This document shows positions 29,679 through 46,010 of a stretch of DNA of 64,000 nt, one piece after another. Position numbers and translations under genes: made by a program. The stretch is from a candidate division KSB1 bacterium. Its GTDB lineage: Bacteria > Zhuqueibacterota > Zhuqueibacteria > Zhuqueibacterales > Zhuqueibacteraceae. The DNA lies in assembly GCA_034506175.1 (NCBI GenBank), contig JAPDQB010000005.1:1-64000 (forward strand), read 5' to 3'. Numbering within the stretch: position 1 is the stretch's first letter; the number at the start of each line of letters is the position of its first letter. Under the pieces are notes generated by a model. That model was not told the DNA's origin. It searched no databases and saw nothing but the letters and a program-made list of their open reading frames with translations.

Positions 29679-31280
29679 TCATCGTTTCACCGACAAGCGC
29701 TGAAATTCTTCGACGCTGCCGAGGCGTACCGCACAGCCATGCGGACAGTTGCTCACGCACGCCGGACCATGATTGGTTTTATAGCACAAATCGCATTTGC
29801 TGGCCAATAAACGCGGTTTGCCACGCAGCAACTCCGGAATCATATTCTCCGCCCACGTTTCACCGGTCTCGTGCATGATGATCGCATCATACGGGCAATT
29901 GTTGGCGCAAGCCTGGCAGCCGATGCAGAGATTATCGATGATTTCAACCACGTCACCCACGCTGGCGCGGCGAATCGCACCGGTCGGACATCCCACCAAA
30001 CAAACCGGATCGTGGCAGTGATAGCAGGCTTTGGTGATCAGCAGGTTTTCATGCTTGTCGCCTTCGCGCACGAATCGTGGCCGGCCCTCATGCGTATCGG
30101 CGCAGCCGCGCACGCATTCGTCGCAGCGCGTGCAGACATTCAGATCGATCACCAAAATGCTGTGGCCTTGCACCAGCCCCTTCTCCAAAGCCGTTTGCAT
30201 GAATTGCGAGCGGCTGATATTTTTTTTGTTGTAGCCCGCTTGCTTCAGGCGCGTCACTGCAGTTTCCCAAAGTTGTTTGCCGATGCTGGCATACTTTTGG
30301 GTGAGGGCGAGAAAATCTTCGCGGCTGATCTTGACCAAATCGCTGAATTCAACCGACCTCGCCGTACAAGTCCAGCCGCGCACGCCATCGACCAGAAGCT
30401 CGACTTCGCCCAGCGTCTGGCCTTTGGAAAGATAAGTGACCACCAGCTCGCCTTCGCCCATTTTTTGCGACAGCTTGACAAAACCGGAACGCACCAGATA
30501 AAACGCCTCCACTGGTTCGCCTTCCTGGGCGATCATTTCATTCGGCTCGCAGGAAAGCAATTCCACTTTTTTCGCCAGCGCTTCCAGAAAAGCCTCATCA
30601 CAAGATTGCAATAAAGGTGTCGTTCGCAGCTGTGCCAGCAGCGATCTTTCGCGATAAATTTTATCGAGTCGCTGTTTCAGCGCCGGAGATTTGCGTTTCA
30701 TGCGCCGCAGCGCCGGCACGCGAATTTGCGCCAGCACGCAATCCGCTGCCGCCCGCGCCGTCGCAGATTGCGGCCAGCCATTCATCGCGCCGATCTCGCC
30801 AAAAATCTCACCGGGGCCGAGCCGTAATATGCCGCCGGCCGGCAGATTGAAATCCAGCGCCGAGAGAAAAATGATGGTTTCGCCGTTTTTATTTTGCTTT
30901 TCCAATTGAGCTTGCAAAACGGTTTTACCTGCCTGCCCGGCCCGATCATCCGGCCGGCGAGAGGGGCCGGCCGATTTGTGCAAATAAACTTCCACTTCGC
31001 CTTGCACAATATAAAATGCCATATCGACATACGTCCCCTCCTCGAACAAGATTGCGTGCTTCTTCCATTTCGCCACTGAAATGTCCGCACTGATCGCCTC
31101 GAGAAACTCGTCGTCATAATCGCGAAAGATTTCGAATCGCCGCAAATCATTCGGCGAAAGTTTCTCGGAAATGCCCAAAATGCCCGCGGTCGCGCCGTAT
31201 GAGTTCCAGCGATCTTTGTAAAGCTCGAGCCGCTTGATAACCGTCGGTCTAATCGCGCCGTTTTTAAAATTAGTGGTCAT
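29679..31280 (-). CDS. Two cyclic-nucleotide-binding domains fused to a four-cluster ferredoxin
   Basis: A 533-residue cytoplasmic protein. The first cNMP-binding beta-roll (about 50-200) has AFYIVQGEVEVYL and the phosphate-cassette-like PGEIFGEIGAMNGWPQSATARA. It contains an insertion between strands (about 103-140). The second roll (about 222-330) has AFYLVRSGFVKL and LGEVELLVDGVRGWTCTA. Residues 380-516 hold sixteen cysteines in four DmsB/NrfC-like sets: CTRCDECVRGC, CYHCHDPVCLVGC, CIGCQACANNC and CDLCYKTNHGPACVSNC. Neither roll ends in a DNA-binding domain, so electron flow rather than transcription may be the output. Its start overlaps the stop of the cytochrome gene (31277-31280). Ligand (cAMP, c-di-GMP or none) is unknown. 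Confidence 0.85.
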   Translation of the reverse strand: MTTNFKNGAIRPTVIKRLELYKDRWNSYGATAGILGISEKLSPNDLRRFEIFRDYDDEFLEAISADISVAKWKKHAILFEEGTYVDMAFYIVQGEVEVYLHKSAGPSRRPDDRAGQAGKTVLQAQLEKQNKNGETIIFLSALDFNLPAGGILRLGPGEIFGEIGAMNGWPQSATARAAADCVLAQIRVPALRRMKRKSPALKQRLDKIYRERSLLAQLRTTPLLQSCDEAFLEALAKKVELLSCEPNEMIAQEGEPVEAFYLVRSGFVKLSQKMGEGELVVTYLSKGQTLGEVELLVDGVRGWTCTARSVEFSDLVKISREDFLALTQKYASIGKQLWETAVTRLKQAGYNKKNISRSQFMQTALEKGLVQGHSILVIDLNVCTRCDECVRGCADTHEGRPRFVREGDKHENLLITKACYHCHDPVCLVGCPTGAIRRASVGDVVEIIDNLCIGCQACANNCPYDAIIMHETGETWAENMIPELLRGKPRLLASKCDLCYKTNHGPACVSNCPHGCAVRLGSVEEFQRLSVKR

Positions 31281-32242
31281 GGTGAATTAACCGTATTGCC
31301 GTTGGTTTTCTGATACAACAACTCCAGCCGTTTTTTTACAATCAAAAGAATATCCCGCACCGAAGTTGTGTCGCTGATATTCGGAAACGGCGGCAGATCA
31401 AGCGGCGCGGCATTATCAACCGGCATAATCGCGGCAGTCGGCGTTGGCCGCGATGGGACTGGGTTTTGGGATGGCGCTGCAACGACGGATGCCGTTGGCC
31501 GAGCCGGCTGGCGAGTTTCCGCCGGGCTAATCGCCTCACGTTTCACCGGCGGTCTGGACATCGGCGCAACGGCCGGCTCGACTTTAGCGATTTGCGCCAC
31601 CGGGCCTTTCACGCGCATCGCGTTTTCAAAAGGCACCTTTGTCAAATCTTCGCCAGTTGCTTGGCGTTTCCAATGCCGCGCCACTTTTTTCATGCCGGAA
31701 ATGTAATTGAAATTGGCGCCGTTCGGATGTCCGGCCGCAATCAGCTTTTGATCGGTAATATAATGACAGCGCACACAGGTTTTGGCGCGAGTATCCAAAT
31801 TTTTCAGCTCGACCAAGCCAAGTTTCAGCGCTTTTTCATAACCACCGGGTTTTTCAGAATGCGGGTCTTTATAATCGCTGCCCGGCCCATGACAGCTTTC
31901 GCAGCTCACGCCGTCTTCCACGTCACGCGATTCTTTGCCGGCGATCACCGTGCCGTGACAAGAGGCGCAAATTTGATTTCCTTTCAACATGTTGCCGGTG
32001 CCGACGCCGGCGAGCTGCGCGATTTTTTCGTATGCTGCCGGATCATCGTAAAACGCGTCCACCGTAGCATGATGCGCATCATCTTTCCACCAGTTGTTTT
32101 CATTGGTGTGGCAATTGCTCTGCCCGAGGCCGCAACTGCCGGGCCCAAGGGTTTTGTATTGGGCGAAACACGGAGAAAGAGCCGGACCCAAAGTTGTGAT
32201 GACTGCAAAAACGCCTTTTTGTATAATTTTTTTTTTACGCAT
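31277..32242 (-). CDS. Periplasmic multihaem cytochrome c
   Basis: A protein of about 321 residues from the ATG at 32242 (MRKKKIIQKGVFAVITTLG, a signal peptide). An upstream ATG at 32293 would add 17 residues that hide it. Haem motifs are CASCH, CESCH and CVRCH, plus an N-terminal SCGLGQSNCH where the cysteines are further apart. Distal His candidates include DDAHH and PHSEK. It resembles the cytochrome c554-like fold in part. A Pro/Ala-rich linker follows and the C-terminal helix is short (TTSVRDILLIVKKRLELLYQ). It overlaps the cNMP-ferredoxin gene by 4 nt and is 52 nt downstream of the large decahaem gene. Confidence 0.8.
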   Translation of the reverse strand: MRKKKIIQKGVFAVITTLGPALSPCFAQYKTLGPGSCGLGQSNCHTNENNWWKDDAHHATVDAFYDDPAAYEKIAQLAGVGTGNMLKGNQICASCHGTVIAGKESRDVEDGVSCESCHGPGSDYKDPHSEKPGGYEKALKLGLVELKNLDTRAKTCVRCHYITDQKLIAAGHPNGANFNYISGMKKVARHWKRQATGEDLTKVPFENAMRVKGPVAQIAKVEPAVAPMSRPPVKREAISPAETRQPARPTASVVAAPSQNPVPSRPTPTAAIMPVDNAAPLDLPPFPNISDTTSVRDILLIVKKRLELLYQKTNGNTVNSP

Positions 32243-32294
32243 ATATTTTTTATTCTCGTGGTCGTTTGGCATTCTTGAAAACGAACGCTGCATT

Positions 32295-35200
32295 TCACTT
32301 GTTACTTGACGGTGGCTTTGCCTCGCTGCGCATGGTCTCCAATTGCGTCGTCATTTTCTCATCCGACACCGTCCAGATTTTCCCGTTGCGCAAATAAAGT
32401 TTTTGCTGTTCCACCAGCGTAAATGGCCGTGAGCCCAAGCGCCCAAACACACTCACTTGATTCCCGCTTTCATCCACTGCGCGGTCGCGATCCAGGCCCT
32501 TGGAAATGGCCAGCGCCTCGCCGTGCGTTTTGTGTGTTGCGATCAGCTTTGGCGTCGGCCGCGGGCTGAAACCGAGATAATTCGGATTCTCCGGTGAAGT
32601 GAGCTGAATCACCCGCAAACCATTGCGGCCATCGGCGAGATATGCAAACACGCTGGCATTGGTCGCCGCCACTTTCACATCACGCGCGTCGTTGATTTGA
32701 CTTTTCGCCGTGTAAATTTGCTCGATTTTCAACGCTTCGGGATTTTCGGCGTCGATAATCACCAGACCTTGCGCACCTGCCGCCACATACGCGTAAGTTC
32801 GCGCCACATAAATGTTATTCGCCTCCTTCAACGGCACAAAACTGTTGCTGACGAACTTTGGCTTTTCAGGAAAAGTCACATCGACAACTTTCACCCCTTC
32901 GACGTCACAGACAAACGAATAACGAAACTGCACCGCCACGGCTTTGGGCTTTTTGATTTTTGGCGCGCCAACGCCGCCGACAACACGCGGTTTCAAAGGA
33001 TCAGCGATGCTCACAATCACCAGGCCGGCGTCGCAAGTGATATAAACATAGTTGCCGGCGATGGTCAAGTTTGTCGCGCCATTCAAAATGCCTTTGGGAT
33101 TAAAGGTGACCGCGCGCTGCAAAAAATTGTTGCGCGGATCGTTGTCAACCAGCGTCATCACCTCAACGAGAATCAAGCCCTCATATTTGTCCGTGATGTA
33201 CGCATAACTGTACAGTGGATGAATCGGCCATTGCTCTTGATTCTCCGGGCGATGCACGCGCTTGGTGTCAATTGGCATATTCGTGGGCAGAGCCACTGCC
33301 GTCGCATATTTCGTTTTGACCTGCGTATCCTGCCCCAGCGGCGAAACCGGTGCGGAAATGACGCGCTCTGAAAAACCTTTGTTGTCAACATTGGCGACAT
33401 CGTAAACGCGGAAACCATCTTCGCCGTTCGCCGTGTAAAGATACTCGCCGCGCAACTGCAGGCTTTGAATATTCGTGCCGCCGTGATGATATGCCGTTTT
33501 CAGCTTGCGGCCTCTGAACAGATGTTTCTTGTAATAATCCGGATACGCCAGTTTGTGCAAATAACTTCCAATCACCGCTTGCGGCTCATCCTGCTCGGTC
33601 ACTTGCACCGCTTCAAAGCCATTCCTGCCCGTAGCGACGTAAGCATATTTACCCATGAAATTGACGAAGTTTGTTCCCTGCAAAAGCACTTGCGCCATCC
33701 AGGCGTTGTTGTCGTTCTTGTCCGAAAGATGGCAATCCGTGCAGCTTCGCGTTTCAGTTTTGCGCACCGTATGCGGAAAATGCGGGTTGAACGCCTGGCT
33801 GCTGTAACCCGGCGCCGAAATCGGCGCCTGCTGATTATAAATCTGCTCGCGATTGGCATTGCGCGAGCTGAGCAGCAGCGCGCTCGACGAACGAGCCGGC
33901 GCGACTTTATTGCCTTTCGTTGTGCCATTGACGCACAACATGAAACCGTCATCGCGGAGCACTTGTGGATTGTAGGTTGTCCAATTTCGTGACTTTTCAC
34001 CTTCGTAGTGATTCATTTCCTTTTTCCAATTCGCCTGCTGCGGCAGATGGCAGCCGAAGCAATTCGTCACCCACGACGAGTGACAACTGTAACATTCCAT
34101 TTTTTCAGGGGAATGCGCCAGAAGCGATTTGGCCATCGGCGACGCCCACTCGCCACCGCCTTTTGCGACCAGTTTGGCCGCGCGCGCCTTCGAATTGAAA
34201 TATTTCGAGCTCGGATCGACGATATCCACAACCTGCGGAATTTCCCATTGCAGCGTATCGTTCAACATCGAACGCTGAAAAATGCGATTGCCCTTTTTGG
34301 AGAATTGCTTTTCTTTGAACGGTGTGAAGCGTTCCAATAAATTCGTTCCGCCCTCCGGCGCTGCGAGCCCTGAAGTCCGCAATGTCGCACGCTCGGTTAC
34401 CGTGCCGTGGCAATCGACGCATTGAATCTCAATCGCATTGTGAAACTCCCCGTACAGCTTGCCGTTGCCATGATTGTCCTGCTCATAATGACAATCGACA
34501 CAGTGCATGCCTTTTTCAGCGTGGATGTCCTTCAAATGCACCGCCTTCTGGGCGTTGCGACATGCCTCATCTTCAATGTCACCCTCAGAGCCTTCGAGCG
34601 GCACGACGCCGTGGAATGTATGCGGCGAATCCGGCGAAATGATTTTGCCGTCCTTATCCAACAGATTGCCCTTGCGATCTTTTTTGAACACCGCGCGGAA
34701 AATCCAGCCGTGGCCGTGATAATCCGCAAACTGTGTGCGCTTGAGTTTGGGATTGAGCCTGGTCACCGTGCGTAAAAAATTCGGATCACCCCAGTTGCCG
34801 CGCAACACCGCCTCCTCTGGATTGGCAGCCAGCAACTCAAAGGCTTCGGCAACGGAGGGATATTTTTGTTTTTCCGGATACATCCACTTGCCATCGCTTT
34901 CGTAATCCCACATCTGAAAACCGAAAAACGTGTTGAGAAAACCGTTTGGCTGGTGCATGTGACACACCATGCACTGACTTGACGGAATCGCTTTGGTGAA
35001 TTGATGCATGATCGGATGGCCGGATTCTTTTTTCGGAATGGCCTCGTCGGCGGTCTGGGCGAAACCACGATTGCCGAATTTCGCATACGGCCCGGAATGC
35101 ACCGGTGAGCGATCGTTGGCATAAACGACGTGACACGCCGTGCAGCCGCTCGAACGATAATCGCCGGGATGATCGTTCGTGCCCAGGAAAGAAAGGTTGG

Positions 35201-35999
35201 GATCGTTCAAGCGCGTCTTTTGCAAATTCAAGACCGGCGAGCTGATCAGCAGCTCGGTGCCGAGGCCGCGGGCGCTGAGCTTGTTGTCCGGCCGGCCCGG
35301 TTCATCCAAAATATTCGGAATGCCGATCTCCGAGGGATTGCCGCGCGCAATGCGGCCGCCGCGCTCAAAACTTCTGAAATAATCACCCGGCTGTGAAATT
35401 TCCCAGCGCGGCAGCGGCACAAGAAACGGCAGCACGCCTTTCTTCAAGTCCGCCAAAGTCGGCGGCGGCACGGTGTTGATCATTTGCGGCTCACCGTCGC
35501 GGCTGTAACTTTCGCCCAAAATATAATTTTTTGCCGAGATAATGCCGTTGTTGTAAGCCGCGCCACCCCACAACAACGCCGAGGTGGTCATCATGCTCTT
35601 TTTCACATTCAACACCTCTTGCGCATGGCACGGCGCGCAGGTTTGATCGACCACGCGCAAATCACCGGGATTGACGAAGCGAATAAAATCCGGGGTTTCA
35701 TCATTCAGCAGTGTGTAGGTTCGCGCCGGATTCGCCGCGCTTGGCCAGCGCCTCTCGTGGCGCGGTTTGACATGCGCCTGTCCCCTCGTTCTGGCTTCGG
35801 CATTGCCGCCGTGACAATCCGTGCAACCGAGCTTCACCGCCGGCGATTTGTGCATGCTCTCGATGCCGGTGTGACATTTCATACAACTTTTGCTCTTGCG
35901 GTCAGCTTCTTCCTGCGTTTGGCGGATGAGTTTGTTTTCCTGCGCGACAGAGGTAGAGATAAAGCCTACGAGTAATGGCCAGAGTATACTTAATTTCAT
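32295..35999 (-). CDS. Large decahaem cytochrome c with LVIVD beta-propeller repeats
   Basis: About 1234 residues from the ATG at 35999 (MKLSILWPLLVGFISTSVAQ, a clean signal peptide). A longer frame from 36074 is less likely. The N-terminal two-thirds holds ten CXXCH motifs: CMKCH, CTDCH, CAPCH, CTACH, CMVCH, two CVDCH, CYSCH, CFGCH and CTDCH. The C-terminal third has about six repeats of the LVIVD type, for example YAYVATGRNGFEAVQV, YVYITCDAGLVIVSIADP and YAYVAAGAQGLVIIDAENP, which would fold into a propeller. An exported or outer-surface electron carrier is likely. The combination is unusual and I know no characterised homologue. Confidence 0.85.
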   Translation of the reverse strand: MKLSILWPLLVGFISTSVAQENKLIRQTQEEADRKSKSCMKCHTGIESMHKSPAVKLGCTDCHGGNAEARTRGQAHVKPRHERRWPSAANPARTYTLLNDETPDFIRFVNPGDLRVVDQTCAPCHAQEVLNVKKSMMTTSALLWGGAAYNNGIISAKNYILGESYSRDGEPQMINTVPPPTLADLKKGVLPFLVPLPRWEISQPGDYFRSFERGGRIARGNPSEIGIPNILDEPGRPDNKLSARGLGTELLISSPVLNLQKTRLNDPNLSFLGTNDHPGDYRSSGCTACHVVYANDRSPVHSGPYAKFGNRGFAQTADEAIPKKESGHPIMHQFTKAIPSSQCMVCHMHQPNGFLNTFFGFQMWDYESDGKWMYPEKQKYPSVAEAFELLAANPEEAVLRGNWGDPNFLRTVTRLNPKLKRTQFADYHGHGWIFRAVFKKDRKGNLLDKDGKIISPDSPHTFHGVVPLEGSEGDIEDEACRNAQKAVHLKDIHAEKGMHCVDCHYEQDNHGNGKLYGEFHNAIEIQCVDCHGTVTERATLRTSGLAAPEGGTNLLERFTPFKEKQFSKKGNRIFQRSMLNDTLQWEIPQVVDIVDPSSKYFNSKARAAKLVAKGGGEWASPMAKSLLAHSPEKMECYSCHSSWVTNCFGCHLPQQANWKKEMNHYEGEKSRNWTTYNPQVLRDDGFMLCVNGTTKGNKVAPARSSSALLLSSRNANREQIYNQQAPISAPGYSSQAFNPHFPHTVRKTETRSCTDCHLSDKNDNNAWMAQVLLQGTNFVNFMGKYAYVATGRNGFEAVQVTEQDEPQAVIGSYLHKLAYPDYYKKHLFRGRKLKTAYHHGGTNIQSLQLRGEYLYTANGEDGFRVYDVANVDNKGFSERVISAPVSPLGQDTQVKTKYATAVALPTNMPIDTKRVHRPENQEQWPIHPLYSYAYITDKYEGLILVEVMTLVDNDPRNNFLQRAVTFNPKGILNGATNLTIAGNYVYITCDAGLVIVSIADPLKPRVVGGVGAPKIKKPKAVAVQFRYSFVCDVEGVKVVDVTFPEKPKFVSNSFVPLKEANNIYVARTYAYVAAGAQGLVIIDAENPEALKIEQIYTAKSQINDARDVKVAATNASVFAYLADGRNGLRVIQLTSPENPNYLGFSPRPTPKLIATHKTHGEALAISKGLDRDRAVDESGNQVSVFGRLGSRPFTLVEQQKLYLRNGKIWTVSDEKMTTQLETMRSEAKPPSSNK

Positions 36000-36243
36000 A
36001 AAGATGTTTTCATCATGTTTGATTGGCGAACATTGGCCTCTGACTAAGATTTTGTACATGAGTTTTTTTATCATACAAGTTTCGCTTGATTTTTCGCTTT
36101 AGATGCGTATATTTTTAAAGAAAGATTTAAACTTCATCCTTCCTTAATTGTAGCGAGAGATTCTAATAATGTTAAGAATATCTGCTAAGTACGAAAATAG
36201 TTTTACTTTAAGTTTTTAGCGCACTCTTTTGGGGTCCAACCAT

Positions 36244-37965
36244 TTAATAAGTAAAAACCAACGACGTAAAAACCGAAAACAACATTTGCTTCGACTGATA
36301 AATGCTGCTGAATCCGGCGAGCGGCGTTAAGCCTGTTGCAGAAAATGTGCAGATGGCGTTGTTATTCAAAAAAGGCCGGTAAATCAAACCGATGCCATAA
36401 TCGATGCCGAGATGGTTGCTGATCGCCGGCTGATTCAAAAATTGCTGCAAGGCAATCGTGTTGACAAACCGCAAGTAATTGCCGTTCAACACCGCCTTCA
36501 ATTTCGGCGTCAATTCGGCGTCGAAGGCGACATTGAACAACAGCAGACCCGGATTGACGAAGTTGGGTTGGCCCTCGGCCTTGCTGCTGCGCAAGCTCGG
36601 CAGCAGGCTGGTTTTATTTACGAGGTTGACGCCCATCAGCCTGATGCCTTGCTGATTCCAAAAACTGAACGGCCCGCCAGCGAACGCGGTTTGGTCGATA
36701 ATCGTATCAAAGCCCTGCCCGACGTTGTCCTGCGGATTGGAATCGCCGGAAGCAAAGAAAACCGAGGCGCGGTAACGTTTCCAATCCCGATCGACCGAAA
36801 GCTCCAGCGCCGCCATCTGCGCATTGAGCCGAAGACGGCGATTCGCCAGTTGATTGAACGTGTCGTTGCCGAGAACCTGATAAAACGCATGATTGATGTT
36901 GAGGCTGCCGAAATGGCCGTCGCCGGTCCAGCCCAAATAATACGCATTGATCGTGTGCGGCTGCACGGTGCCGATCAAGGCCGGGCGAATCGGAAAGCCG
37001 TTGCGGTCAACGTAAAAACTCGCGCGATCGTTATTATAATGAAAACTCAATTGGCCAGTGTAACCGAGCGTGAACAAATCCTGCCGGTACAAATTCGCAA
37101 TGTAAACGCGTTGATTGCGATCCAGAAAAACCGTGTTCAGCTCGCTGTTGGTATCCTTCTCCAGCATGTAAAAATAAGCCAGATTATACTGATACCGATT
37201 CGAATGAAAATTGCCGAACAGCCGCCCGCCAAAATTCAAATCGCTGAAAATGAAGCTGCGAAAATCGCTGGCAAAGCGTTGAATGCCGCCTTTGAAAGAA
37301 ATGAAATCATAGCTGTCGCTGAGATCGGCGAGATGTTTTTCCAGCGACAGCTCCTGAAAAGCGATCTGGCGGTCGGTACGCCTGGCGCCACGCCGCACGT
37401 TGATTTTGACGCCGTTATTTTCCCGCAGCGCCACATAATTCCAATTAAAAACCGGCGTCACGCGAATTTCCCAATCGCGCGGCCGAAAAGCCACCTGGCC
37501 GTGATAAAAATCCAGACTCAACCTGAGTGTGTTGAGCGAAATGAAACGCTCACCCTGGCCAAAAAAGTTTTGGCTCTGAACGTTCGCCGTGCTCACCCCG
37601 CTCGGCGTCGGCAAACGCACCCCTTCGAGAAAGTTTTCCGTTGATGCCGTGAGCACTAAAAATGTATTCTGCCCAAGAATGGGATAATCACCCTTCAGCA
37701 GATTTTGGTTGTACGGATCATACCAACGGCCTTTCACATTGCGCTCGTACGGCGGCGTTTTGATGTCGCGCCAACGGTCAGGCAGCGGCACGAAATCTTT
37801 GAGCATGAGTTTGTTGCCGCGCTGTTGCAGTGCTTGCCCGGATTCCAATTTTGCCTTATTCTTATTGACGGCAGACGAGTCACCTGGAGCTTGAGTCCAT
37901 GCGAATCGCGGCGCAGAACAAAGGCAGCAAATCAAAATATAGTGAAGCAAATTTTTTCGCATCAT
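36244..37965 (-). CDS. Outer-membrane beta-barrel protein, putative porin of the redox block
   Basis: About 573 residues starting MMRKNLLHYILICCLCSAPRFAWTQ (signal peptide). After a short periplasmic part (LKDFVPLPDRWRDIKTPPYERN) the protein is a run of amphipathic beta strands with aromatic girdles (WEIRVTPVFNWNYVAL, YQYNLAYFYML, LFTLGYTGQLSFHYN, KRYRASVFFASGDSN). It ends in SVFTSLVFTY, a terminal aromatic as in outer-membrane proteins. Placement directly downstream of the FHA, haem-binding and cytochrome genes suggests it is the barrel through which a decahaem cytochrome could be threaded, as in porin-cytochrome conduits. That role is inference. Confidence 0.7.
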   Translation of the reverse strand: MMRKNLLHYILICCLCSAPRFAWTQAPGDSSAVNKNKAKLESGQALQQRGNKLMLKDFVPLPDRWRDIKTPPYERNVKGRWYDPYNQNLLKGDYPILGQNTFLVLTASTENFLEGVRLPTPSGVSTANVQSQNFFGQGERFISLNTLRLSLDFYHGQVAFRPRDWEIRVTPVFNWNYVALRENNGVKINVRRGARRTDRQIAFQELSLEKHLADLSDSYDFISFKGGIQRFASDFRSFIFSDLNFGGRLFGNFHSNRYQYNLAYFYMLEKDTNSELNTVFLDRNQRVYIANLYRQDLFTLGYTGQLSFHYNNDRASFYVDRNGFPIRPALIGTVQPHTINAYYLGWTGDGHFGSLNINHAFYQVLGNDTFNQLANRRLRLNAQMAALELSVDRDWKRYRASVFFASGDSNPQDNVGQGFDTIIDQTAFAGGPFSFWNQQGIRLMGVNLVNKTSLLPSLRSSKAEGQPNFVNPGLLLFNVAFDAELTPKLKAVLNGNYLRFVNTIALQQFLNQPAISNHLGIDYGIGLIYRPFLNNNAICTFSATGLTPLAGFSSIYQSKQMLFSVFTSLVFTY

Positions 37966-38007
37966 GATTGCTGAGACAAACAAGTTTTACCTTTTACGAT
38001 ATTCTGC

Positions 38008-39627
38008 CTAGTTCAAATCCGGCTGGCGCGGAAATTTAAGGTACGGCAAGCGCGCGTTACGATATGTAATTTGATCAGACCGAATCGCCAGCGGCGCTTC
38101 AAATCCGGTGGCACCCCCCGCCGCAATATAGTCATCCTGATCGACGCCATCGCCGCTGACGCCAATGCCGCCGGCGAGCTGGCTGCGCCCGTCCGGACCG
38201 TTTTTATAAAGTGGAATGCCGCCGGGGAAAATTTGGATGCCGTTTTGAAAGGGTGGACGCGTTGGCAACAAGCGTTGATACTGAAAATCAAATTGACCAT
38301 CGACGTAAATATAGAACGGCCCCATCTCAGGTGGCTGAACGCTTGGCGGTGCACCTTGATTGATGCCCGGCGGATAATAGCGTTGCGCCAAAAATCCAAT
38401 GGCGCGCGTGCTGACCGCCAACGGCTGATTTGCCGACAGGCCGAGAATCGTTCGCAAATTGGCGCCGAGCGGATCACTGGGGTTGCTGAACGCCACCACC
38501 GTTCGCGCCTTTTGCACACACACGTCGTAACTAAATGTGCTGGCATCCGGCGTGCGCCACACACCGAGCACCGTGCCATCGAGATCGGCGACCGCGATGA
38601 ACACCTGCGCCGGCCGTCCCAGCGGCAAACGAACTGCTGCCCGCGTCTTGTTGGCTCGCGTCACCGCCTGCGTGATGATTTGCCGGACCTCGCTGGCTGT
38701 CAACACCGAACCGCCTTTGATGCGATAATCATGAGCGGCGTCATACCTCACTTCGCCTTGCACGGGCATTTTCGGCGAAGGCGTCGGCTGAATCGGATAA
38801 GCTGGATCAACGGCGCCGCGTGTCGCCAAACTGTCGAAAGTGAGCGTGAAATTTCCCGCCGGTGTGGTTGCGTTGGCATAAGGCAGCCGAATGCCATCGA
38901 GATAAATATTGTCGCCACGCAATTGGCTTGGAACTTCATAACCGATGATGGCGCCCAGCGCGATGATTTCGTCCCGGATCACCCCCGTACAATAATTATT
39001 GATGCCGTTGAGTTGGGTAAACGTGTCGGAGCCGCCACTGATGCCCAAACCGCCGGCAAGCGCGCCGCTTTTGTAAATGGGAACGCCGCCGGGAATGTTC
39101 GTCAATCCCGGTTGCGGCGGCGCTGGCGGCTGCTGCGGGCCGAGCGGCGGAAGCGGCCCGCCGTTGGGTTGAATATCGCTGTCGCTGCGGTTCGAAAAAG
39201 GCACGCCAAACAACGGCCCGGCGGCGGTGTTATCCGCGGTGGGAGGAAAATGACTGCGGGTGATGAAACAGGCCGTGAGCGTTGTGAATGCACGCTCATT
39301 GCTGCTGAGAAATGCCGCGGTGCGGGCCTTTGCAATTTCGCCAAACAGGGCCTCGGAAGCCGCGCCGACTCGCGGCGCGCCGTTCATACGAAAAACCCCG
39401 AGCACGTTGCCTTCGCGATCGACGATGGCAACATTGATGGTTTCGTTCAGACGCTGTGCCTGTTCCACCGCTTGCGTCATCAATTTTTGCACGTCCGGCA
39501 CCGTTAACGCTGGCGTCTCAGTCGGCGTCGAGGTCATGGGCGACTTCACCGAGTCACAGCCGCAGAGGCCGAGACTCATCAACCGAACCAGCATCACACT
39601 CAAGATCGCCTTCATCCGGAATCTCAT
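38008..39627 (-). CDS. Lipoprotein with two HbpS/GlcG-like haem-binding domains
   Basis: 539 residues from the ATG at 39627, which has AGGAG 8 nt upstream. The extra upstream frame to 39804 is rejected. The leader MRFRMKAILSVMLVRLMSLGLCGCDS has a lipobox before Cys. Two copies of the HbpS/GlcG-like fold follow. Each has the helix with QAVEQAQRLNETINVAIVDREGNVLGVFRM or QAVTRANKTRAAVRL..VAVADLDGTVLGVW, then KARTAAF/KARTVVAF, and the GGVPIYKSGALAGGLGISG or GGIPLYKNG..AGGIGVSGDG end. HbpS-type proteins bind haem or other small ligands. In this block a haem or flavin sensor/carrier on the envelope is plausible. Confidence 0.78.
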   Translation of the reverse strand: MRFRMKAILSVMLVRLMSLGLCGCDSVKSPMTSTPTETPALTVPDVQKLMTQAVEQAQRLNETINVAIVDREGNVLGVFRMNGAPRVGAASEALFGEIAKARTAAFLSSNERAFTTLTACFITRSHFPPTADNTAAGPLFGVPFSNRSDSDIQPNGGPLPPLGPQQPPAPPQPGLTNIPGGVPIYKSGALAGGLGISGGSDTFTQLNGINNYCTGVIRDEIIALGAIIGYEVPSQLRGDNIYLDGIRLPYANATTPAGNFTLTFDSLATRGAVDPAYPIQPTPSPKMPVQGEVRYDAAHDYRIKGGSVLTASEVRQIITQAVTRANKTRAAVRLPLGRPAQVFIAVADLDGTVLGVWRTPDASTFSYDVCVQKARTVVAFSNPSDPLGANLRTILGLSANQPLAVSTRAIGFLAQRYYPPGINQGAPPSVQPPEMGPFYIYVDGQFDFQYQRLLPTRPPFQNGIQIFPGGIPLYKNGPDGRSQLAGGIGVSGDGVDQDDYIAAGGATGFEAPLAIRSDQITYRNARLPYLKFPRQPDLN

Positions 39628-39682
39628 GAGAATTACTCCTATCGAAAAAATTTTAACACAACAGTGCACGATCACAAAAAAT

Positions 39683-42040
39683 TTATTTTTGCTCCAAAAT
39701 TTCCACCACCACCGGCCCTTTCGGCCTGGCGACGCAAGCCAAACGATATTTTCCCGGCTCGAGCTTGTTGATATCTTCAAGTGTCCCTTGCTCTTCATCA
39801 CCAAGCGGGTTCATGTTTTCGAAACCGGAAATAATTCGAATCGGATCGAGGCCGCAACTGCCGATGCGGCAATCCGCTTTGAGTTTCAAGCCGTTGTTCT
39901 CGGCAATTTCACAAATCGTTTGTCCGGTTTTGAAAGAACAGCTTTTCCCCAAATTTTTAAAGACAACGAACATGCCCTCCAATTTTGCTGCCTGCGGCTT
40001 GGCTTCTTCAATCTTTTGACTTCGCGCTTCCGGCTTTTGATTTCGATCTTCCGTCCTTTGACTTCGCGCTTCGGACTTCGGGCTGCGGACGTTTTTTAAC
40101 TCAGTGTTAAAGACGATCGTCCGCCGCGCCCTTTCTTTTTTCAAATTGAATTTAAAAAGCTGCTGGCCGATGCGAAATTGATCATCGAGCTCCAGCGGCA
40201 CGGAATTTTTGATTTTCAGAAAACTGCCGTTGGCGCTGCCCAAATCTTTCACCCAAATTTTGCGATCCTTGACCGTAACTGACAGATGGTGGCGCGACAG
40301 CGTCATATCGTACTGGTCCAAAGTGACATCGGGCGCCTGGCGGCCGACAACGATGATTTGATTTGACAGCTCGTAACGATTCAGCGGCTTGCCAGCGGCA
40401 TCGATGTGAATGAACGAATAGCCCCCGTTTTCCGTGTCAAACAACAACATTTGCTTGCCGATACGAATGACGTTACCGTGAAAAATTTCCGTTGGCCGCG
40501 CTTCCTTCAGTTTAATGAAGACGCCGTTGGTGCTGCCATCGTCGCGGAGAAAATAGCCTTCCGGCCCATGTGAAATCGAGGCGTGCTGGCCGGACATCAG
40601 CATGTCCTCCGGAAAGTTAATGTCACAATCTTTGCGGCCGATCGTCGTGGTGCCGTTTTGATTGACGGCAAACTCCTCCGCCTCCACATTTCCTGAAATG
40701 AGGTGCACGAGAAAAGCCTGATGCTGTGCGGCGAATCGCGCCGCGCTCAAATTCTTTTGGGGCGAGCCGTCGCTGCCGGCAATCGAAGTTTTGGCGCCGG
40801 CAAATTTGGCCTCGACACGTTCTTCCTCAAAATCAAGATCGATGCGAACCACTTTTTTGCCGGCGAGTTTTTGCGCCACGGCTTCGGCGACGAGAACGCC
40901 GTCGCGCAGCGCTGCTTTGATATTGCCTCGGCGTCTGATTTCCTGAAAGGAATCCGGGTCGGCGTCAAAATTTTCGGTTTCCAAATAGGCCGGGCTTAAA
41001 ATATCACCGATCAAAAAAACATTCGGTTGTTTCGTTTCGAGCAGCGGCGTCACCACGAAACGCGGTTTGTTGCCCGGCCCGGCGGTGATCATCTCTATTC
41101 CAAGTGAACTCAAAAAAGCCGTTGGGATGTCTTCACCGATGCAGGCGATACAATGTTCCTTGGGAAATTCGAGGTGAGAAGTCTCGAGCGGCCGACCCTC
41201 GAGGCGACGGCGATCCGTGCGTAGCGAAAGATATTCTTTTTTGTCCTCGGCAGTAATCACCGCCACTGGTTCGCTGTAGGCATAATGACGAATGTTGCCG
41301 TTGCCCAGATAGGCGTCGAAAAATGCCTCGGCCAGTGCCTTCGAGACCTTCGGCAATTTGTCACCGCGATAGGACCAGTAAACCGCGGTCGAATCATTCG
41401 CCTTGATTTTCGCCTGTGAAATCGCAATCACCGCCTCCGCCGCGGAAGTGCCGCCACCGATCACCAACGCCGGCGCGCCGACGTACAAAGCCGGATCCGA
41501 CAAACGATATGCAATGCCCTCGGTGTTACCGGGAATATCAAAACGGCGCGGCACACCGCGGCCAATGGCGATGATGACATGCTTCGTGAGAAAGGATTGC
41601 TCGGCTTTGGTATGGTGATTATACGCGCGCGCCTGCCAAACGCCGTCGTGGCGCTGCTGCAAGCCGAGAAGCTCGACACCGACTTGCGCGGGAATGTTGT
41701 TCTCGCGATACAAGGTTTTCCACTGCCGGCACATCTCGTCCTTGTCGATGGGGGAAAAGCGCAGCAACGAAATCAAGCCGTCACCTCGCGGAAATGGCAT
41801 GTTGTCCCCACCACCGTAGTCGGGAAGAATCAGCTTGTCCTTGGCATAATCGCGAATGCGTTTCATCACGTCGTCAAAATCGATGACGAGCGCGATCAAG
41901 CCCAATTCCTTGGCGCGAAACGCCGCCGCCGTTCCCGCCGGCCCGCCGCCAACGATCAGCATGTCCAACACCTCTGGCAAGCGCACCGGCTGCTTGAGAG
42001 TAAATGTGCCGTCGGCAAGGATTTCGTGATTTGTGTTCAT
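39683..42040 (-). CDS. FAD/NAD(P) reductase fused to two FHA domains and a [2Fe-2S] domain
   Basis: A 785-residue cytoplasmic fusion. Residues 25-395 are a thioredoxin-reductase/YpdA-like flavoprotein with GGGPAG (31-36) for FAD and GGGTSA (195-200) for NAD(P)H, and VFLIGDI near 341. FHA1 spans about 455-530 (GRK, S483-H486, STNG at 503-506). FHA2 spans about 550-630 (GRQ, SRHH 582-585, SANG 602-605). Then a charged linker contains EARSQ twice. The C-terminal ferredoxin-like domain (about 688-785) has C724-x4-C729-x2-D732 and C769, so the third ligand is Asp as in E. coli SdhB. FHA domains bind phosphothreonine, so redox partners or clients may be recruited by kinase signalling. It overlaps the next FHA gene by 4 nt. 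Confidence 0.88.
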   Translation of the reverse strand: MNTNHEILADGTFTLKQPVRLPEVLDMLIVGGGPAGTAAAFRAKELGLIALVIDFDDVMKRIRDYAKDKLILPDYGGGDNMPFPRGDGLISLLRFSPIDKDEMCRQWKTLYRENNIPAQVGVELLGLQQRHDGVWQARAYNHHTKAEQSFLTKHVIIAIGRGVPRRFDIPGNTEGIAYRLSDPALYVGAPALVIGGGTSAAEAVIAISQAKIKANDSTAVYWSYRGDKLPKVSKALAEAFFDAYLGNGNIRHYAYSEPVAVITAEDKKEYLSLRTDRRRLEGRPLETSHLEFPKEHCIACIGEDIPTAFLSSLGIEMITAGPGNKPRFVVTPLLETKQPNVFLIGDILSPAYLETENFDADPDSFQEIRRRGNIKAALRDGVLVAEAVAQKLAGKKVVRIDLDFEEERVEAKFAGAKTSIAGSDGSPQKNLSAARFAAQHQAFLVHLISGNVEAEEFAVNQNGTTTIGRKDCDINFPEDMLMSGQHASISHGPEGYFLRDDGSTNGVFIKLKEARPTEIFHGNVIRIGKQMLLFDTENGGYSFIHIDAAGKPLNRYELSNQIIVVGRQAPDVTLDQYDMTLSRHHLSVTVKDRKIWVKDLGSANGSFLKIKNSVPLELDDQFRIGQQLFKFNLKKERARRTIVFNTELKNVRSPKSEARSQRTEDRNQKPEARSQKIEEAKPQAAKLEGMFVVFKNLGKSCSFKTGQTICEIAENNGLKLKADCRIGSCGLDPIRIISGFENMNPLGDEEQGTLEDINKLEPGKYRLACVARPKGPVVVEILEQK

Positions 42041-42957
42041 ACCAAATGCCCGATACTCGAGGCTTTACGTTTTTCAAATTCAAATGTCTGAATCAACCGC
42101 GCCTCAACGTTGCCAAAGCGCAGCGGCGTGCCGGGTTGAATTTCAATTTCTGCCATGGCGGTTTGCATGCCGACAAAAGTGTGATTGCGGCTGCCAAGAT
42201 CTTTCACGAACACTTTATTCGCATTGATGGTCAACACGGCGTGGCGTCTCGATATTGAAGGGTCGTCGATTGCGATTTCACATTGCGGCGACCGGCCCAG
42301 AAAATTTTCGCCGTTTTTGAGCCGAATGGTTTTCAAGCGCCGGCCTTGACTGCGCATTTCCAAAAGAAAAACCGGCTGAGGTGTCGACCTGTTGTTGTTC
42401 TCTGCGAAAACCTCGCGCAGTGTTTTGCCGTTGCGACGGAGCGAGGTTTTTTCCTTCGACGCGGCGCGAAACGGCATCGGCGCGGCTTCGAGCATGGTTT
42501 TGCCGTTGGCTTTTCCATTTGCCGGAAACGTCTCGGCGGTTTCATCTTTGGTGAGCAGCGGTGTTACACCGGTCTTTTTTTCCGGCCTTCCCGGGCTCAT
42601 CGCGGCTGTCGTTTCGCTTTGCGCCATTTTCTTTTTCGCCGGCTCGCCCTCATAGTGGTCAATGACTTGAAAAATGAAATCAAACTTTTGCGCAAAGGTG
42701 ATGATGCTCAATGCTTCCAGTTTTTCCTTCTTTTTTACCCGGACTCCATCAACTTGCGTACCGTTGCGGCTGCCAAGATCCTCCAGAATGTAGCTTTGCG
42801 ATTTTTCGTCGAAATAGATGCGCGCATGCCGGCTGGAAACAATCGGCGGCGCCAGCACGATGCTGTTCGCTCTGCTTTTGCCAATGGTGGCTTCTTTCGT
42901 AAATTCGAAATTTGATCCCGCAAAAAATCCGGTGGTGCAGAAAAGTCTGGCTTTCAT
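42037..42957 (-). CDS. Double FHA-domain protein
   Basis: A 306-residue soluble protein with FHA domains at both ends. FHA1 (about 1-100) has GKS, SSRH (41-44) and LGSRNG (62-66). A flexible linker of about 100 residues rich in Lys, Thr and Ala follows. FHA2 (about 205-290) has LGRS (220-223), SRRH (236-239) and LGSRNH, with His in place of the usual last Gly. The phosphopeptide-contact Arg, Ser and His are kept in both. No catalytic domain. Its stop overlaps the start of the reductase-FHA gene (ATGA), so the two are made together and may form a scaffold for redox proteins and the kinase encoded downstream. Confidence 0.9.
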   Translation of the reverse strand: MKARLFCTTGFFAGSNFEFTKEATIGKSRANSIVLAPPIVSSRHARIYFDEKSQSYILEDLGSRNGTQVDGVRVKKKEKLEALSIITFAQKFDFIFQVIDHYEGEPAKKKMAQSETTAAMSPGRPEKKTGVTPLLTKDETAETFPANGKANGKTMLEAAPMPFRAASKEKTSLRRNGKTLREVFAENNNRSTPQPVFLLEMRSQGRRLKTIRLKNGENFLGRSPQCEIAIDDPSISRRHAVLTINANKVFVKDLGSRNHTFVGMQTAMAEIEIQPGTPLRFGNVEARLIQTFEFEKRKASSIGHLV

Positions 42958-43081
42958 TTTTCATTCATAAAATTTCGCAGGCGCGCCTTCAGACGCTGAG
43001 CGTTGCAAATTTAAAATTCCCTGAATTCGCCGATGTTACATTGACTCAAAGCTTTGTGCCTGAAGGCGACTACCACGCAAA

Positions 43082-44695
43082 TCAATCCAAATACAACAGC
43101 AGGTTAGAACGATTGGTTTTGTTCGGATGAAAATAATGGCACGTCACGCAGCGATTGGAAGTTTCCTCGCGGTTGTGACAGGCACGGCAGTTTTCAATAT
43201 CCGGAATATTTTGAATCGCGGCGCGGTCTTGCACGTTCTTGACCGTCGCCGCGGCCTCGTCCCGCTGCGGCGGGATGATCGGAATTTGCGCATGACATTC
43301 CAGGCATCGCCGCTGCACGATGTGTGCGCGATGGTTGAATTCGGCGCGCTGTAAAATTCGCTGATCTTTTTGCACGCGCCAAATCGCAGCGTTTTCGACC
43401 GTATGACACTCGCGGCAGGGGGCGGTCAACGACGCCGCCAAATCATTGAGCCTGGCGATTTGATCGGGATTCAAGCTTGTATTTGCTTTTGCCGCCGGCC
43501 AGACAAATTTCGCCGCGCCGTTCAAAAGCGGCTGGCGTTGAATTTTGTTGCGCGCGGCTTTAAGCAGCGAGTCGATTTTGGCCAGCTCGCTTTGCACCTC
43601 CGGCTCCGGCCTGCCGCGCAAACCGGCCGCCTGCTCTTGCAGGGTTTGAATCGCTTCCAGATAAATTGACTTTTCCGCTGCCGGTTGATTTTGCCCGCCA
43701 GTTCCGCCGGCGGTTTTGAGCAATTCGGCCAAGCCGAGATTGGGATAAAGCATGCGCTGGATCGTTTTCAAATTTTCCAAAACCCACGGGTCTTTATGAC
43801 GAACCGGCGATTTCACCAGGCGATTGCCGGGCTTAATTTGAAACTCATTGGGATTGGTGTTGAACGCCCACATCACGCCGGGGCTGCGCCGGCGGCGAAT
43901 GGCTTCGAGCGTTTCAACACCGGGCTCCGACAAAGCATCGGCAGTTTTCATTTTGAGCGGCGGCGTTGCAACATTGCCGTTCAAATGACAGGCGCTGCAA
44001 TGCCTCTCAAATGCAATTGGCTCAAAGTGTCTGCCGTCAGGCTGCGGGTTATGGCAATACAAGCAGGCTCTCTCGATATCCATCAGTTTTTCGCGTTTGA
44101 CGATTTCCTTGACGTGCTTGATGTGAGTGAATGCCAGGGTCGAGTCATCTGAAAATTTTTTGGCAACAAACTGAAATTGCGGATGATTGTTGTTGAACGA
44201 GCCGTAAACGTGACACGAGGTGCAATAGGCATCCGGCACATTGATGATCAAGGCATTGCGGCCCTGATGTTCCTGGTGGCAGACGGCGCAAGCAGTTTCT
44301 TTGGTGGCAAAATTGGCTGCGGCGGTTTTTAGCCGCTGCATCTCGCCGGAGCGATAAACGTAGTGGCCGGCAAACGTATAGACGCCGAGTTTGTCGCCGG
44401 TTTTCTCGTGGCATGCCGAGCATTTGGCGCTGGTTGCGGCTTTAAAAGGCTCGTGACACGAGACGCAATCTCTTTCAAATTTGGCGTGAGGCGATGAGAG
44501 CGGACCACTGGCGACAATGCTTTTTTTGAGAAAGAAAAAATCAATGACATAATAACCCAAAATGCCAAGACACATCAACCCGCCGGCGACCATCATGGCC
44601 GGTCGGGGATTAGAGTAGATATATCGGCGCGAAACCGAAAGCTTCAACTCGCTGAAAGCGCCTTTGTTCTTTTTGTTATCTTCTTTCGAATTCAA
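43082..44695 (-). CDS. Membrane-anchored decahaem cytochrome c
   Basis: A 537-residue protein. A basic, hydrophilic N-terminus is followed by one transmembrane helix (about 34-57, PAMMVAGGLMCLGILGYYVI) that leaves the rest in the periplasm. Ten CXXCH motifs are visible: CVSCH, CSACH, CAVCH, CTSCH, CLYCH, CSACH, CRECH, CLECH, CRACH and CVTCH. The middle (about 270-390) has a haem-free helical insert. It is encoded next to the b-type membrane protein, so a quinol-to-periplasm electron step through this pair is plausible, in the manner of NrfH/CymA-like systems though unrelated in size. Confidence 0.88.
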   Translation of the reverse strand: MNSKEDNKKNKGAFSELKLSVSRRYIYSNPRPAMMVAGGLMCLGILGYYVIDFFFLKKSIVASGPLSSPHAKFERDCVSCHEPFKAATSAKCSACHEKTGDKLGVYTFAGHYVYRSGEMQRLKTAAANFATKETACAVCHQEHQGRNALIINVPDAYCTSCHVYGSFNNNHPQFQFVAKKFSDDSTLAFTHIKHVKEIVKREKLMDIERACLYCHNPQPDGRHFEPIAFERHCSACHLNGNVATPPLKMKTADALSEPGVETLEAIRRRRSPGVMWAFNTNPNEFQIKPGNRLVKSPVRHKDPWVLENLKTIQRMLYPNLGLAELLKTAGGTGGQNQPAAEKSIYLEAIQTLQEQAAGLRGRPEPEVQSELAKIDSLLKAARNKIQRQPLLNGAAKFVWPAAKANTSLNPDQIARLNDLAASLTAPCRECHTVENAAIWRVQKDQRILQRAEFNHRAHIVQRRCLECHAQIPIIPPQRDEAAATVKNVQDRAAIQNIPDIENCRACHNREETSNRCVTCHYFHPNKTNRSNLLLYLD

Positions 44696-44726
44696 GTTTG
44701 GAAAAAAGCTTTTGATTTCTTGACGC

Positions 44727-44740
44727 GGTACACGTGTAAC
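44727..44740. promoter_or_regulatory. 14-bp palindromic motif between the b-type and decahaem genes
   Basis: GGTACACGTGTAAC, with the perfect core TACACGTGTA (44729-44738), in the 66-nt gap. It might be an operator or simply chance. Confidence 0.3.
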
Positions 44741-44761
44741 GTGCTCACTGTGAAAACTTTT

Positions 44762-45613
44762 TTAGTAATAGAGCACGGCAAACAAATGCAATCCCAGTAA
44801 AACCAGCAGAACGAGCGACGCCGGCACATGCGTGTAGAGCCATAAGCGCAGGAGGCGCTGCAGCGTGTAATGCGCATCGATTTCGAGTTTGGTTTTGTAC
44901 AAGGCTTCCAACTTGTTCAAATTTTCCTTTTCGGCGAGGGGGAGAAATCCACGCAAATATTCAAATTGTTTCAGTCGCGCTTGAATGCCGCCGGTGATAT
45001 CGATGCAATAAATTAAACGTGGCCGCGGCGTGACCAGCGCCATGGCGATTTGCTTTTGATAAAAATCCTTGATCCCGCTTTGCGGGGCGCAGCTTTCCAT
45101 CAAGGCCTCGACCTGTTCGCCGATTTCCTGGATGAGCTCGGGAATACGCTCGTAAACCACTTCGATGGCGAGGCCGGAGGTCAGAAGCTTGGGAATCCAT
45201 TTTTGCAAAATGACGCCGAAAAAACCGCTCGCCGTGACCCAGATGCTGAGAAACCAAAGCCACCAGGTGAGAATGCCATGCGGCTGGCGAAAGCCGGTGT
45301 GCATGAAAGTAAGCAGCAGAAACAGCGCGCCGCCGTAAAGATGAACGTGCAACCAGGTTTGCGCATTGCCGAATCCGGTTTTCAAAGCAAGTTTTGTCAA
45401 GCGGCGCTGCAATCCCAGCAACGCGGCGCCAATCATCAAGATGGCGGCAAGCGTGCCGTACGTCAAGCCCCATAAGTTGGAGGGACGAACGTCGAAGAAA
45501 ACGGCATTCAGCAAAAAGACGGTTCCACAAAGAACAACCGCCGCCGTGAACAAGCGCAAAGCAGATGATCTTGCGTTTCGCTTGATCAAATCAAAAAACA
45601 TTCTGCGAACCAT
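44762..45613 (-). CDS. b-type di-haem membrane protein (ferric-reductase-like H-x13-H)
   Basis: A 283-residue protein with five predicted helices. Helix 3 carries H91 and H105, and helix 5 carries H262 and H276. Both pairs are exactly 14 residues apart, the H-x13-H spacing that binds two stacked b haems in ferric reductase/NOX-like and some b561-type proteins. A hydrophilic insert of about 100 residues separates helices 4 and 5. It has no NAD(P)H domain, so it is more likely to take electrons from quinol and pass them to the neighbouring decahaem cytochrome. It is first in the block. Confidence 0.8.
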   Translation of the reverse strand: MVRRMFFDLIKRNARSSALRLFTAAVVLCGTVFLLNAVFFDVRPSNLWGLTYGTLAAILMIGAALLGLQRRLTKLALKTGFGNAQTWLHVHLYGGALFLLLTFMHTGFRQPHGILTWWLWFLSIWVTASGFFGVILQKWIPKLLTSGLAIEVVYERIPELIQEIGEQVEALMESCAPQSGIKDFYQKQIAMALVTPRPRLIYCIDITGGIQARLKQFEYLRGFLPLAEKENLNKLEALYKTKLEIDAHYTLQRLLRLWLYTHVPASLVLLVLLGLHLFAVLYY

Positions 45614-46010
45614 CGCTCACACAAACCTGTAAGTGAATTTCATATTCGTGCCGCTCCCCTCAGCCTTTTGCCATGGCTGATCAAGGTGATGTGTATAATT
45701 AAGGCATCTCCAAGCAGGCCGTCACATGAATTGGGCAAAATAGGTGCCAGGCTTTTAGGGGTGATTTTAAAAATTTCCGCAACTCACGCCTTATGATGGT
45801 ACATCTATTCAAGTCAACACCTCAAATTTTCTCTCGCGGCTAAGGAAAGGCCGGATTGTTTTATCCTTACACCAACGCTTCGCTTCCCAGGGACAGGGGT
45901 TCAACTCGACAGCCTCGTCATCTCGATACCTCACTGAGGCGTTGGATGCTGCCCAAGGCCACATGATCAATAAGTTTGGTTTCGCGAAAAATTTAAAAAA
46001 GAGGATACAC
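45614..46010. other. Divergent spacer of the redox block and the large secreted protein
   Basis: 397 bp with promoters expected in both directions. A TATAAT-like element lies near 45694 on the plus strand, but with no well-spaced -35. I saw no riboswitch or operator that I could name. AGAGGA at about 46001 is the Shine-Dalgarno for 46011. Confidence 0.4.

Follow-up and report, generated by a model that had tools for sequence, protein, structure and literature searches.

Nine genes on the minus strand of a 64,000-nucleotide stretch of DNA from a candidate division KSB1 bacterium (assembly GCA_034506175.1, contig JAPDQB010000005.1, positions 1 to 64,000; hereafter, the window) constitute, judging from their sequences and their conservation, a real electron-transfer system. 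The genes, which span positions 29679–45613, are denoted P1 to P9 against the direction of transcription, i.e. P9 is transcribed first and P1 last. The reading that we favor, to which we assign a probability of about 0.55, is trans-envelope electron transfer fed by cytoplasmic NAD(P)H, along the route P6, P1, P9, P8, P2 and P3/P4. The proteins encoded by these genes include two decahaem c-type cytochromes, one of which is fused to a beta-propeller, a predicted outer-membrane barrel, a predicted dihaem b-type membrane protein and a four-cluster ferredoxin.

Conservation and spread of the cluster

Domains were assigned with Pfam and NCBIfam profiles, and the chance level of CXXCH motifs was estimated from shuffled sequences. 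The nine open reading frames are spaced by −4 to 169 nucleotides after correction of the P5 start; the apparent 122-nucleotide overlap between P6 and P5 vanishes if P5 starts later, at about 39627. P3, P8 and P2 contain 10, 10 and 3 CXXCH sites, respectively, against an expectation of 0.006–0.044 in the shuffles. The ten haem sites of each of P3 and P8, the 16 iron-sulfur cysteines of P1 and four histidines of P9 are kept in 41–54 relatives and, therefore, the haem and Fe-S motifs are not due to chance. Thus, the gene count, coordinates and 10+10+3 haem sites given by the first-pass annotation were borne out by the list of reading frames and the motif counts, and so was its description of a two-haem b-type membrane protein (P9, with five transmembrane segments and four histidines), an anchored cytochrome (P8, with one transmembrane segment) and a barrel (the model of P4). 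P4 and P9 have no Pfam or NCBIfam family above the cut-off.

Conservation of the cluster was traced in a set of 99 related genomes (families f1 and f7 among them; the window's own genome is denoted G000) and in 80 loci from named genomes that encode a full-length P3 including the propeller, kept from at least 430 relatives. P3 and P4 co-occur in the same 14 of the 99 genomes (every f1 genome and six f7 genomes), and P9 is found in these 14, with the exception of one fragmented assembly, as well as in G037 and G064. Full-length relatives of P3, with 51–71% identity, are present in at least 80 named genomes from about ten phyla; by record title, the hosts belong to Ignavibacteriae, Chlorobi, Nitrospira, Binatia, Deltaproteobacteria, Acidobacteria, Alpha-, Beta- and Gammaproteobacteria, Planctomycetes and Verrucomicrobia. 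P4 was detected at 75 of the 80 P3 loci and P5 at 56; at 72 of the 75, P4 lies directly upstream of P3 on the same strand. The order P1>P9>P8, within 5 kb, is maintained at 39 of 42 loci, and P1, P9, P8, P5 and P2 are mostly located no more than 10 kb from P3. In the 40 loci whose length is 20 kb or more, P4 is present in all 40, P5 in 37, P8 in 32, P1 in 31, P9 in 30 and P2 in 25. Apart from these genes, no family is shared by as many as seven P3 loci, and no substrate-specific gene recurs beside the cluster. The pairwise distances of P3, P4, P8, P1 and P9 correlate with r = 0.75–0.93, of which species phylogeny alone may explain much. A second complete copy is encoded on another contig of G000, in the order P5-P4-P3-P2-P1-P9-P8-P7-P6, followed by a kinase gene. 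The genes are thus not scattered in related genomes, in line with the earlier suggestion that they form a system; the conserved gene order that, on that view, would support a system was found in about ten phyla, and the system is not confined to Calditrichota/KSB1.

The P3 tree mostly tracks the phyla, with the P3 of the window next to those of Ignavibacteriota and Chlorobiota, which indicates that the system is old and did not spread recently. The system can also be mobile, given that plasmids of Sphingobium and Sphingopyxis (L137, L138 and L154), two of them typed as conjugative, carry the cluster or a part consisting of a P8-like gene, P5, P4 and P3. Isolates with these genes include Sphingobium herbicidovorans (plasmid pMSHV), Parahaliea maris and Limnobacter alexandrii; one locus (L100) comes from a biocathode metagenome-assembled genome and one (L118) from Opitutaceae. 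A 1777-codon reading frame in another locus (L068), considered as a P4-P3 fusion, was rejected as an alternative frame in GC-rich DNA that is similar to neither protein.

Cytoplasmic input and the inner-membrane core

P9 (44762–45613) is a five-transmembrane protein in which the positively charged loops lie on the N-terminal side, placing, under the positive-inside rule, the N-terminus in the cytoplasm and the C-terminus in the periplasm, with a large cytoplasmic loop at residues 137–262. Histidines H91 and H105 in the third segment and H262 and H276 in the fifth are 98% conserved among 52 sequences; from this spacing, P9 appears to ligate two stacked haems, through H91/H262 on the cytoplasmic side and H105/H276 on the periplasmic side. 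The protein shows weak Pfam similarity to Ni_hydr_CYTB/DUF4405 (prokaryotic cytochrome b561 type) and has no match among PDB sequences. In five f7 genomes (L041–L045), P1 and P9 are fused into a single protein of about 825 amino acids, with P1 at the N-terminus. P8 (43082–44695) is a decahaem c-type cytochrome with one N-terminal transmembrane segment (residues 33–51) and haems predicted to be periplasmic; its ten CXXCH motifs are 98–100% conserved in 45 sequences, and the search of PDB sequences yielded short cytochrome matches only. The Cytochrome_C554/c7 and class III cytochrome profiles match both P8 and P2.

P1 (29679–31280) is predicted by profile matches to be a cytoplasmic protein that combines two cNMP-binding-type domains with a DmsB-like ferredoxin part, whose 16 cysteines, conserved in 41 of 41 sequences (100%), are arranged as in DmsB-type ferredoxins with four [4Fe-4S] clusters. 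A CYHCH motif in P1 was ruled out as a c-haem site because it belongs to the conserved ferredoxin motif. P6 (39683–42040) consists of a YpdA/TrxR-like FAD/NAD(P) reductase domain, two FHA (phosphothreonine-binding) domains and a plant-type [2Fe-2S] (Fer2) domain. In Proteobacteria, Nitrospira and others, P1 itself carries a P6-type FAD/NAD(P) domain, fused at its N-terminus, and in Acidobacteria, the P1 N-terminus is a NuoG/HoxU-type 2Fe-2S/4Fe-4S region and the adjoining gene is a NuoE-NuoF fusion. Thus, by domain architecture and gene adjacency, three kinds of NAD(P)H-oxidizing input converge on the P1-P9-P8 core; read from sequence, the fusions and the NuoEF neighbors link an NAD(P)H-binding module to a membrane haem protein. 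P6 is kept in all f1 genomes, even where it is encoded outside the cluster. The third cysteine of its plant-type [2Fe-2S] domain is replaced by aspartate (C-X4-C-X2-D...C) in every copy read through to its C-terminus, suggestive of either an unusual ligation or a possible loss of the cluster. P7 (42037–42957) contains two FHA domains, assigned by profiles, and is syntenic with the cluster in f1 and f7. In G001 (L039, 5860–8613), the first 57 residues of P7 share a 918-amino-acid frame with P6, which reflects either fusion of the two genes or a gap in the assembly.

The inner module is separable from the outer set: in G037, in G064 and on another contig of G002 (L139–L141), the same P1-P9-P8-P7-P6 array adjoins a different outer set. 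This set encodes a 5-haem protein distantly similar to ExtKL, an exported protein of about 504 amino acids and a 7-haem protein whose C-terminal part is a homologue of P2. Such joining of the core and P2 to other outer genes is as expected of an inner module that supplies electrons, and P2 is the likely link between the inner and outer modules. From its length, signal peptide and position, we guess that the exported protein of about 504 amino acids is a barrel; it was considered as a relative of P4 and rejected, as it has no profile similarity to P4 in a comparison with only three sequences on one side.

The outer end and its relation to known conduits

P3 (32295–36074; 1259 amino acids, with a probable start at about 35999) is an exported protein with a decahaem region (residues ~50–790) fused to a C-terminal LVIVD beta-propeller (~810–1240). 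Its model, built from 54 sequences (predicted local distance difference test score, pLDDT, 83.7; predicted template modeling score, pTM, 0.87), shows a haem half that is poor in secondary structure, followed by the C-terminal propeller; the fold search matched propellers only, and the PDB sequence search gave short cytochrome matches only. All ten haem sites and 13 non-motif histidines in the haem half are conserved. The cytochrome half has three collinear partial matches to ExtM, scoring 105 bits against the NCBIfam cut-off of 800. In G000, the ExtM profile matched just the two P3 copies, and an Ext operon elsewhere in this genome was rejected on this basis.

P4 (36244–37983) has a signal peptide and is predicted to be an outer-membrane beta-barrel: the model, derived from 61 sequences (pLDDT 89.7, pTM 0.88), shows 18 long strands. 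The best PDB match in the fold search was AlgE (template modeling score 0.62–0.67), followed by Occ-type channels; MtrB was absent among the 50 matches listed. The N-terminal segment DPYNQNxLKGDxP is conserved. Assignment of P4 to a known porin family was rejected, as nine members have no Pfam or NCBIfam match and there is no PDB sequence match. The P3-P4 pairing makes it plausible that electrons are exported from the cell.

P2 (31277–32293) is, by its profile matches, an exported cytochrome of the c554/c7 kind. In addition to its three CXXCH sites, it contains, in the window's clade, a conserved C-X6-CH (residues 54–62), which is C-X4-CH in other phyla; this site corresponds to the first CXXCH of the c554 family and may bind a fourth c-haem. 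P5 (38008–39627) carries tandem HbpS/GlcG-like domains (two matches to PF03928). The frame is open from 39804, and a signal peptide, MRFRMKAILSVMLVRLMSLGLCGC, begins at about 39627. As to the earlier description of P5 as a haem-binding lipoprotein, P5 is exported; its lipobox (LCGC) is slightly atypical, so that P5 is only a probable lipoprotein, and haem binding is suggested by the name of the family.

Several known systems share some of these features. The Geobacter ext cluster (extHIJKLMNOPQS, GSU2940-2930) likewise brings together a porin-like protein, multihaem cytochromes and an inner-membrane b-type cytochrome, and there are distant relationships of the P3 haem half, collinearly, to ExtM and of the alternative 5-haem protein to ExtKL, suggesting descent from a distant common cytochrome stock. 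However, ext includes a Rieske protein (ExtO) and a rhodanese (ExtH), neither of which domains was detected in the nine proteins, and lacks the propeller, FHA and cNMP domains, the four-cluster ferredoxin and the NAD(P)H reductase; P4 has no ExtI similarity in Pfam or NCBIfam, where the presence of an ExtI model was not checked. MtrCAB, MtoAB and PioAB resemble the cluster in combining an exported barrel with a decahaem cytochrome, but P4 is 18-stranded and AlgE-like, P3 is unrelated in sequence to MtrA and MtrC and has a propeller, there is no surface lipoprotein cytochrome here, and their input is quinol, compared with the probable NAD(P)H input of the present cluster. P3 matched no Mtr family above the cut-off, and P8 scored 25 against the cut-off of 30 for the MtrC-domain family PF22113. 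The Geobacter Pcc systems (OmbB-OmaB-OmcB and ExtABCD) also pair a barrel with two or more multihaem proteins; no sequence relation to them was found, their clusters have no inner-membrane module and their haem counts differ. By the broad description of Pcc, a barrel gene beside exported multihaem genes is present, and a surface lipoprotein cytochrome was not detected.

In the Uet pathway of Ca. Tenderia electrophaga and some Gallionella, a porin, multihaem cytochromes and NHL propeller proteins are encoded together (PMC10734462), but the NHL proteins are separate genes, the cytochromes are undecahaem and trihaem, and no FHA, cNMP, Fe-S or NAD(P)H parts are reported. Porin-multihaem clusters of Verrucomicrobia were likewise proposed as a novel conduit (He et al. 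2017, PMC5615132), and Opitutaceae also host the present system; in those clusters, the porin is predicted to have 20 strands or more and lies next to an octahaem cytochrome, compared to 18 strands and the decahaem-propeller protein here. The inner end is reminiscent of NOX/ferric reductases, in which flavin/NAD(P)H provides the input on the cytoplasmic side, the two b-haems are stacked, histidine pairs lie 14 residues apart in two helices and the output is outside the inner membrane; the differences are the Fe-S relay between flavin and haem, the multihaem c-type output to the outer membrane and the absence of a sequence match. In its presumed mode of action, the cluster is analogous to a porin-cytochrome system coupled with a transmembrane reductase that draws on NAD(P)H. 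On the features compared, it belongs to none of Ext, Mtr, Pcc and Uet, apart from the barrel-multihaem adjacency of the broad Pcc description. No description of LVIVD-haem proteins or of this gene set was found in the open literature, with subscription papers and preprints outside the search. The first-pass annotation knew of no described counterpart, which, in the open literature searched, holds for the gene combination and has to be qualified for the haem half of P3, the distant relative of ExtM; its view that the combination is new and no simple copy of known conduits agrees with the Mtr comparison of P3 and the AlgE-like barrel.

Electron path, competing readings and implications

In the proposed chain, P6, through its FAD and [2Fe-2S] cofactors, would take electrons from NAD(P)H and deliver them to P1, whose four [4Fe-4S] clusters would receive them at the cytoplasmic face of P9. 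Transfer across the inner membrane to P8, the anchored decahaem, would go through the two b-haems of P9, and P2 would relay the electrons through the periplasm, in the presumed order P8, P2, P3. The decahaem-propeller P3, paired with the barrel P4 and the HbpS-like P5, would receive them, and the most likely end point, as far as direction and exit can be deduced, would be an acceptor reduced at or beyond the outer membrane. We consider it highly probable that an electron chain leads from the cytoplasm to the periplasm and quite probable that its cytoplasmic partner is NAD(P)H; outward flow appears likely, and delivery beyond the outer membrane is slightly favored.

Several observations weigh against this proposal. 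The MtrB barrel has 26 strands, more than the 18 of P4. Strand number alone does not exclude a conduit because 18 transmembrane segments are also predicted for ExtB (PMC6148476), part of the ExtABCD conduit, for which there is genetic support. A lipobox was detected in 2 of 91 P3, 1 of 57 P2 and none of 54 P8 sequences, and surface exposure of P3, which has no lipid anchor, is thus putative. Three f7 genomes with good coverage that encode the fused P1-P9 protein yielded no P6 match at a threshold of E ≤ 1e-30, and P9 may contain a quinone-binding site. Furthermore, several hosts are usually regarded as aerobes, in which respiration to solids would be unexpected.

Could the electrons enter from quinol, as the first-pass annotation had it, with P9 as the quinol oxidase and P1 and P6 as sensors or accessory proteins? 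The weak likeness of P9 to cytochrome b561/DUF4405, families with quinone-reactive members, is compatible with this, and quinol oxidation is the role of CymA, CbcL and ImcH, the known proteins of electron entry at the inner membrane (PMC6295460). The P1-P9 fusion, the reductase-P1 fusion and the NuoEF/NuoG modules make NAD(P)H the more likely input, and the 16 invariant cluster cysteines and the three NAD(P)H-type inputs attached to P1 further argue against mere accessory roles, so that quinol entry at P9 now seems very improbable. Chance proximity of unrelated genes is refuted by the synteny, the fusions and the co-occurrence across phyla, and we give it virtually no weight.

The other two alternatives concern the far end of the chain. 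P3 could be a periplasmic reductase with a porin of its own, in which case P4 would admit an oxidized solute, e.g. a metal or metalloid oxyanion, P3 would reduce it with electrons delivered via P6, P1, P9, P8 and P2, and the electrons would stay in the cell. Deletion of the porin gene extI causes a defect in selenite and tellurite reduction (PMC5877670), a precedent that gains relevance from the three collinear ExtM-like stretches in P3 and the ExtKL-like 5-haem protein of the alternative set; the AlgE/Occ solute channels as the nearest folds of P4 and the missing lipid anchor of P3 point in the same direction. However, the ExtM similarity is weak, the conserved histidines suffice for bis-histidine ligation of all ten P3 haems, which suits transfer over catalysis, and no substrate-specific gene recurs at the cluster; we regard this possibility as rather unlikely. 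Electron uptake, whereby P3/P4 would oxidize a donor in the periplasm or outside the cell (Fe(II), reduced humics or an electrode) and the chain would feed NAD(P)+, is doubtful to a greater degree. The chain is reversible on paper, one locus comes from the biocathode genome, and the hosts include oxygen-respiring organisms, but reduction of NAD(P)+ by donors in the mineral range is uphill, with no coupling device encoded, and many heterotrophic groups carry the system.

Electron flow along the NAD(P)H-fed route would probably be gated by the FHA domains of P6 and P7, by a neighboring kinase and, in some lineages, by the cNMP domains. By reading of the sequences, the R/S/H/N residues of the phosphothreonine-binding core are present in the FHA domains of P6 and P7. 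The adjoining minus-strand gene (25769–28249), which, by profiles, encodes a Ser/Thr kinase with an FGE-sulfatase/SUMF1-type domain, is syntenic in G001, G004, G005 and G007, and kinase genes also follow the second G000 cluster and the clusters of L051 and L052; the kinase is a candidate for the enzyme that places the phospho-marks recognized by the FHA domains. In the first cNMP domain of P1, the phosphate-binding arginine is replaced by glutamine in the window's clade and kept in several Acidobacteria and Verrucomicrobia, and in Sphingobium, a gene for a CpdA-type phosphodiesterase/metallophosphoesterase adjoins P8. Control by cyclic nucleotides thus appears plausible in some lineages and doubtful in the window. 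Two further genes of the window flank the cluster: one (28256–29254) encodes an exported protein of 332 amino acids that has no Pfam family and, in several f1 genomes, shows synteny with the kinase gene and the cluster; the other (45942–49562), divergent from the cluster, encodes an exported protein of 1206 amino acids with an FlgD-Ig/CHU_C-type C-terminus, by which it is a likely substrate of type IX secretion. In relatives, too, proteins with C-terminal domains of this kind are encoded close to the cluster.

A broader proposition, on which we are evenly divided, is that the cluster represents an ancient, undescribed class of systems, spread over about ten phyla and found also in genera regarded as aerobic, that couples the NAD(P)H pool, without the quinone pool, to a decahaem-propeller and barrel pair, with exchangeable input and outer modules and with phosphothreonine and cyclic-nucleotide control. 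To our knowledge, known conduits are quinol-fed and have mostly been studied in metal-respiring bacteria. If the chain works as proposed here, cells of many phyla, including cultured genera such as Parahaliea, Limnobacter and Sphingobium, could bypass quinol in supplying the outer membrane with NAD(P)H-derived electrons, and the hosts to be searched for extracellular or periplasmic electron transfer would come to include ones not usually examined for it. The three inputs and two outputs attached to one core suggest how such chains may evolve.

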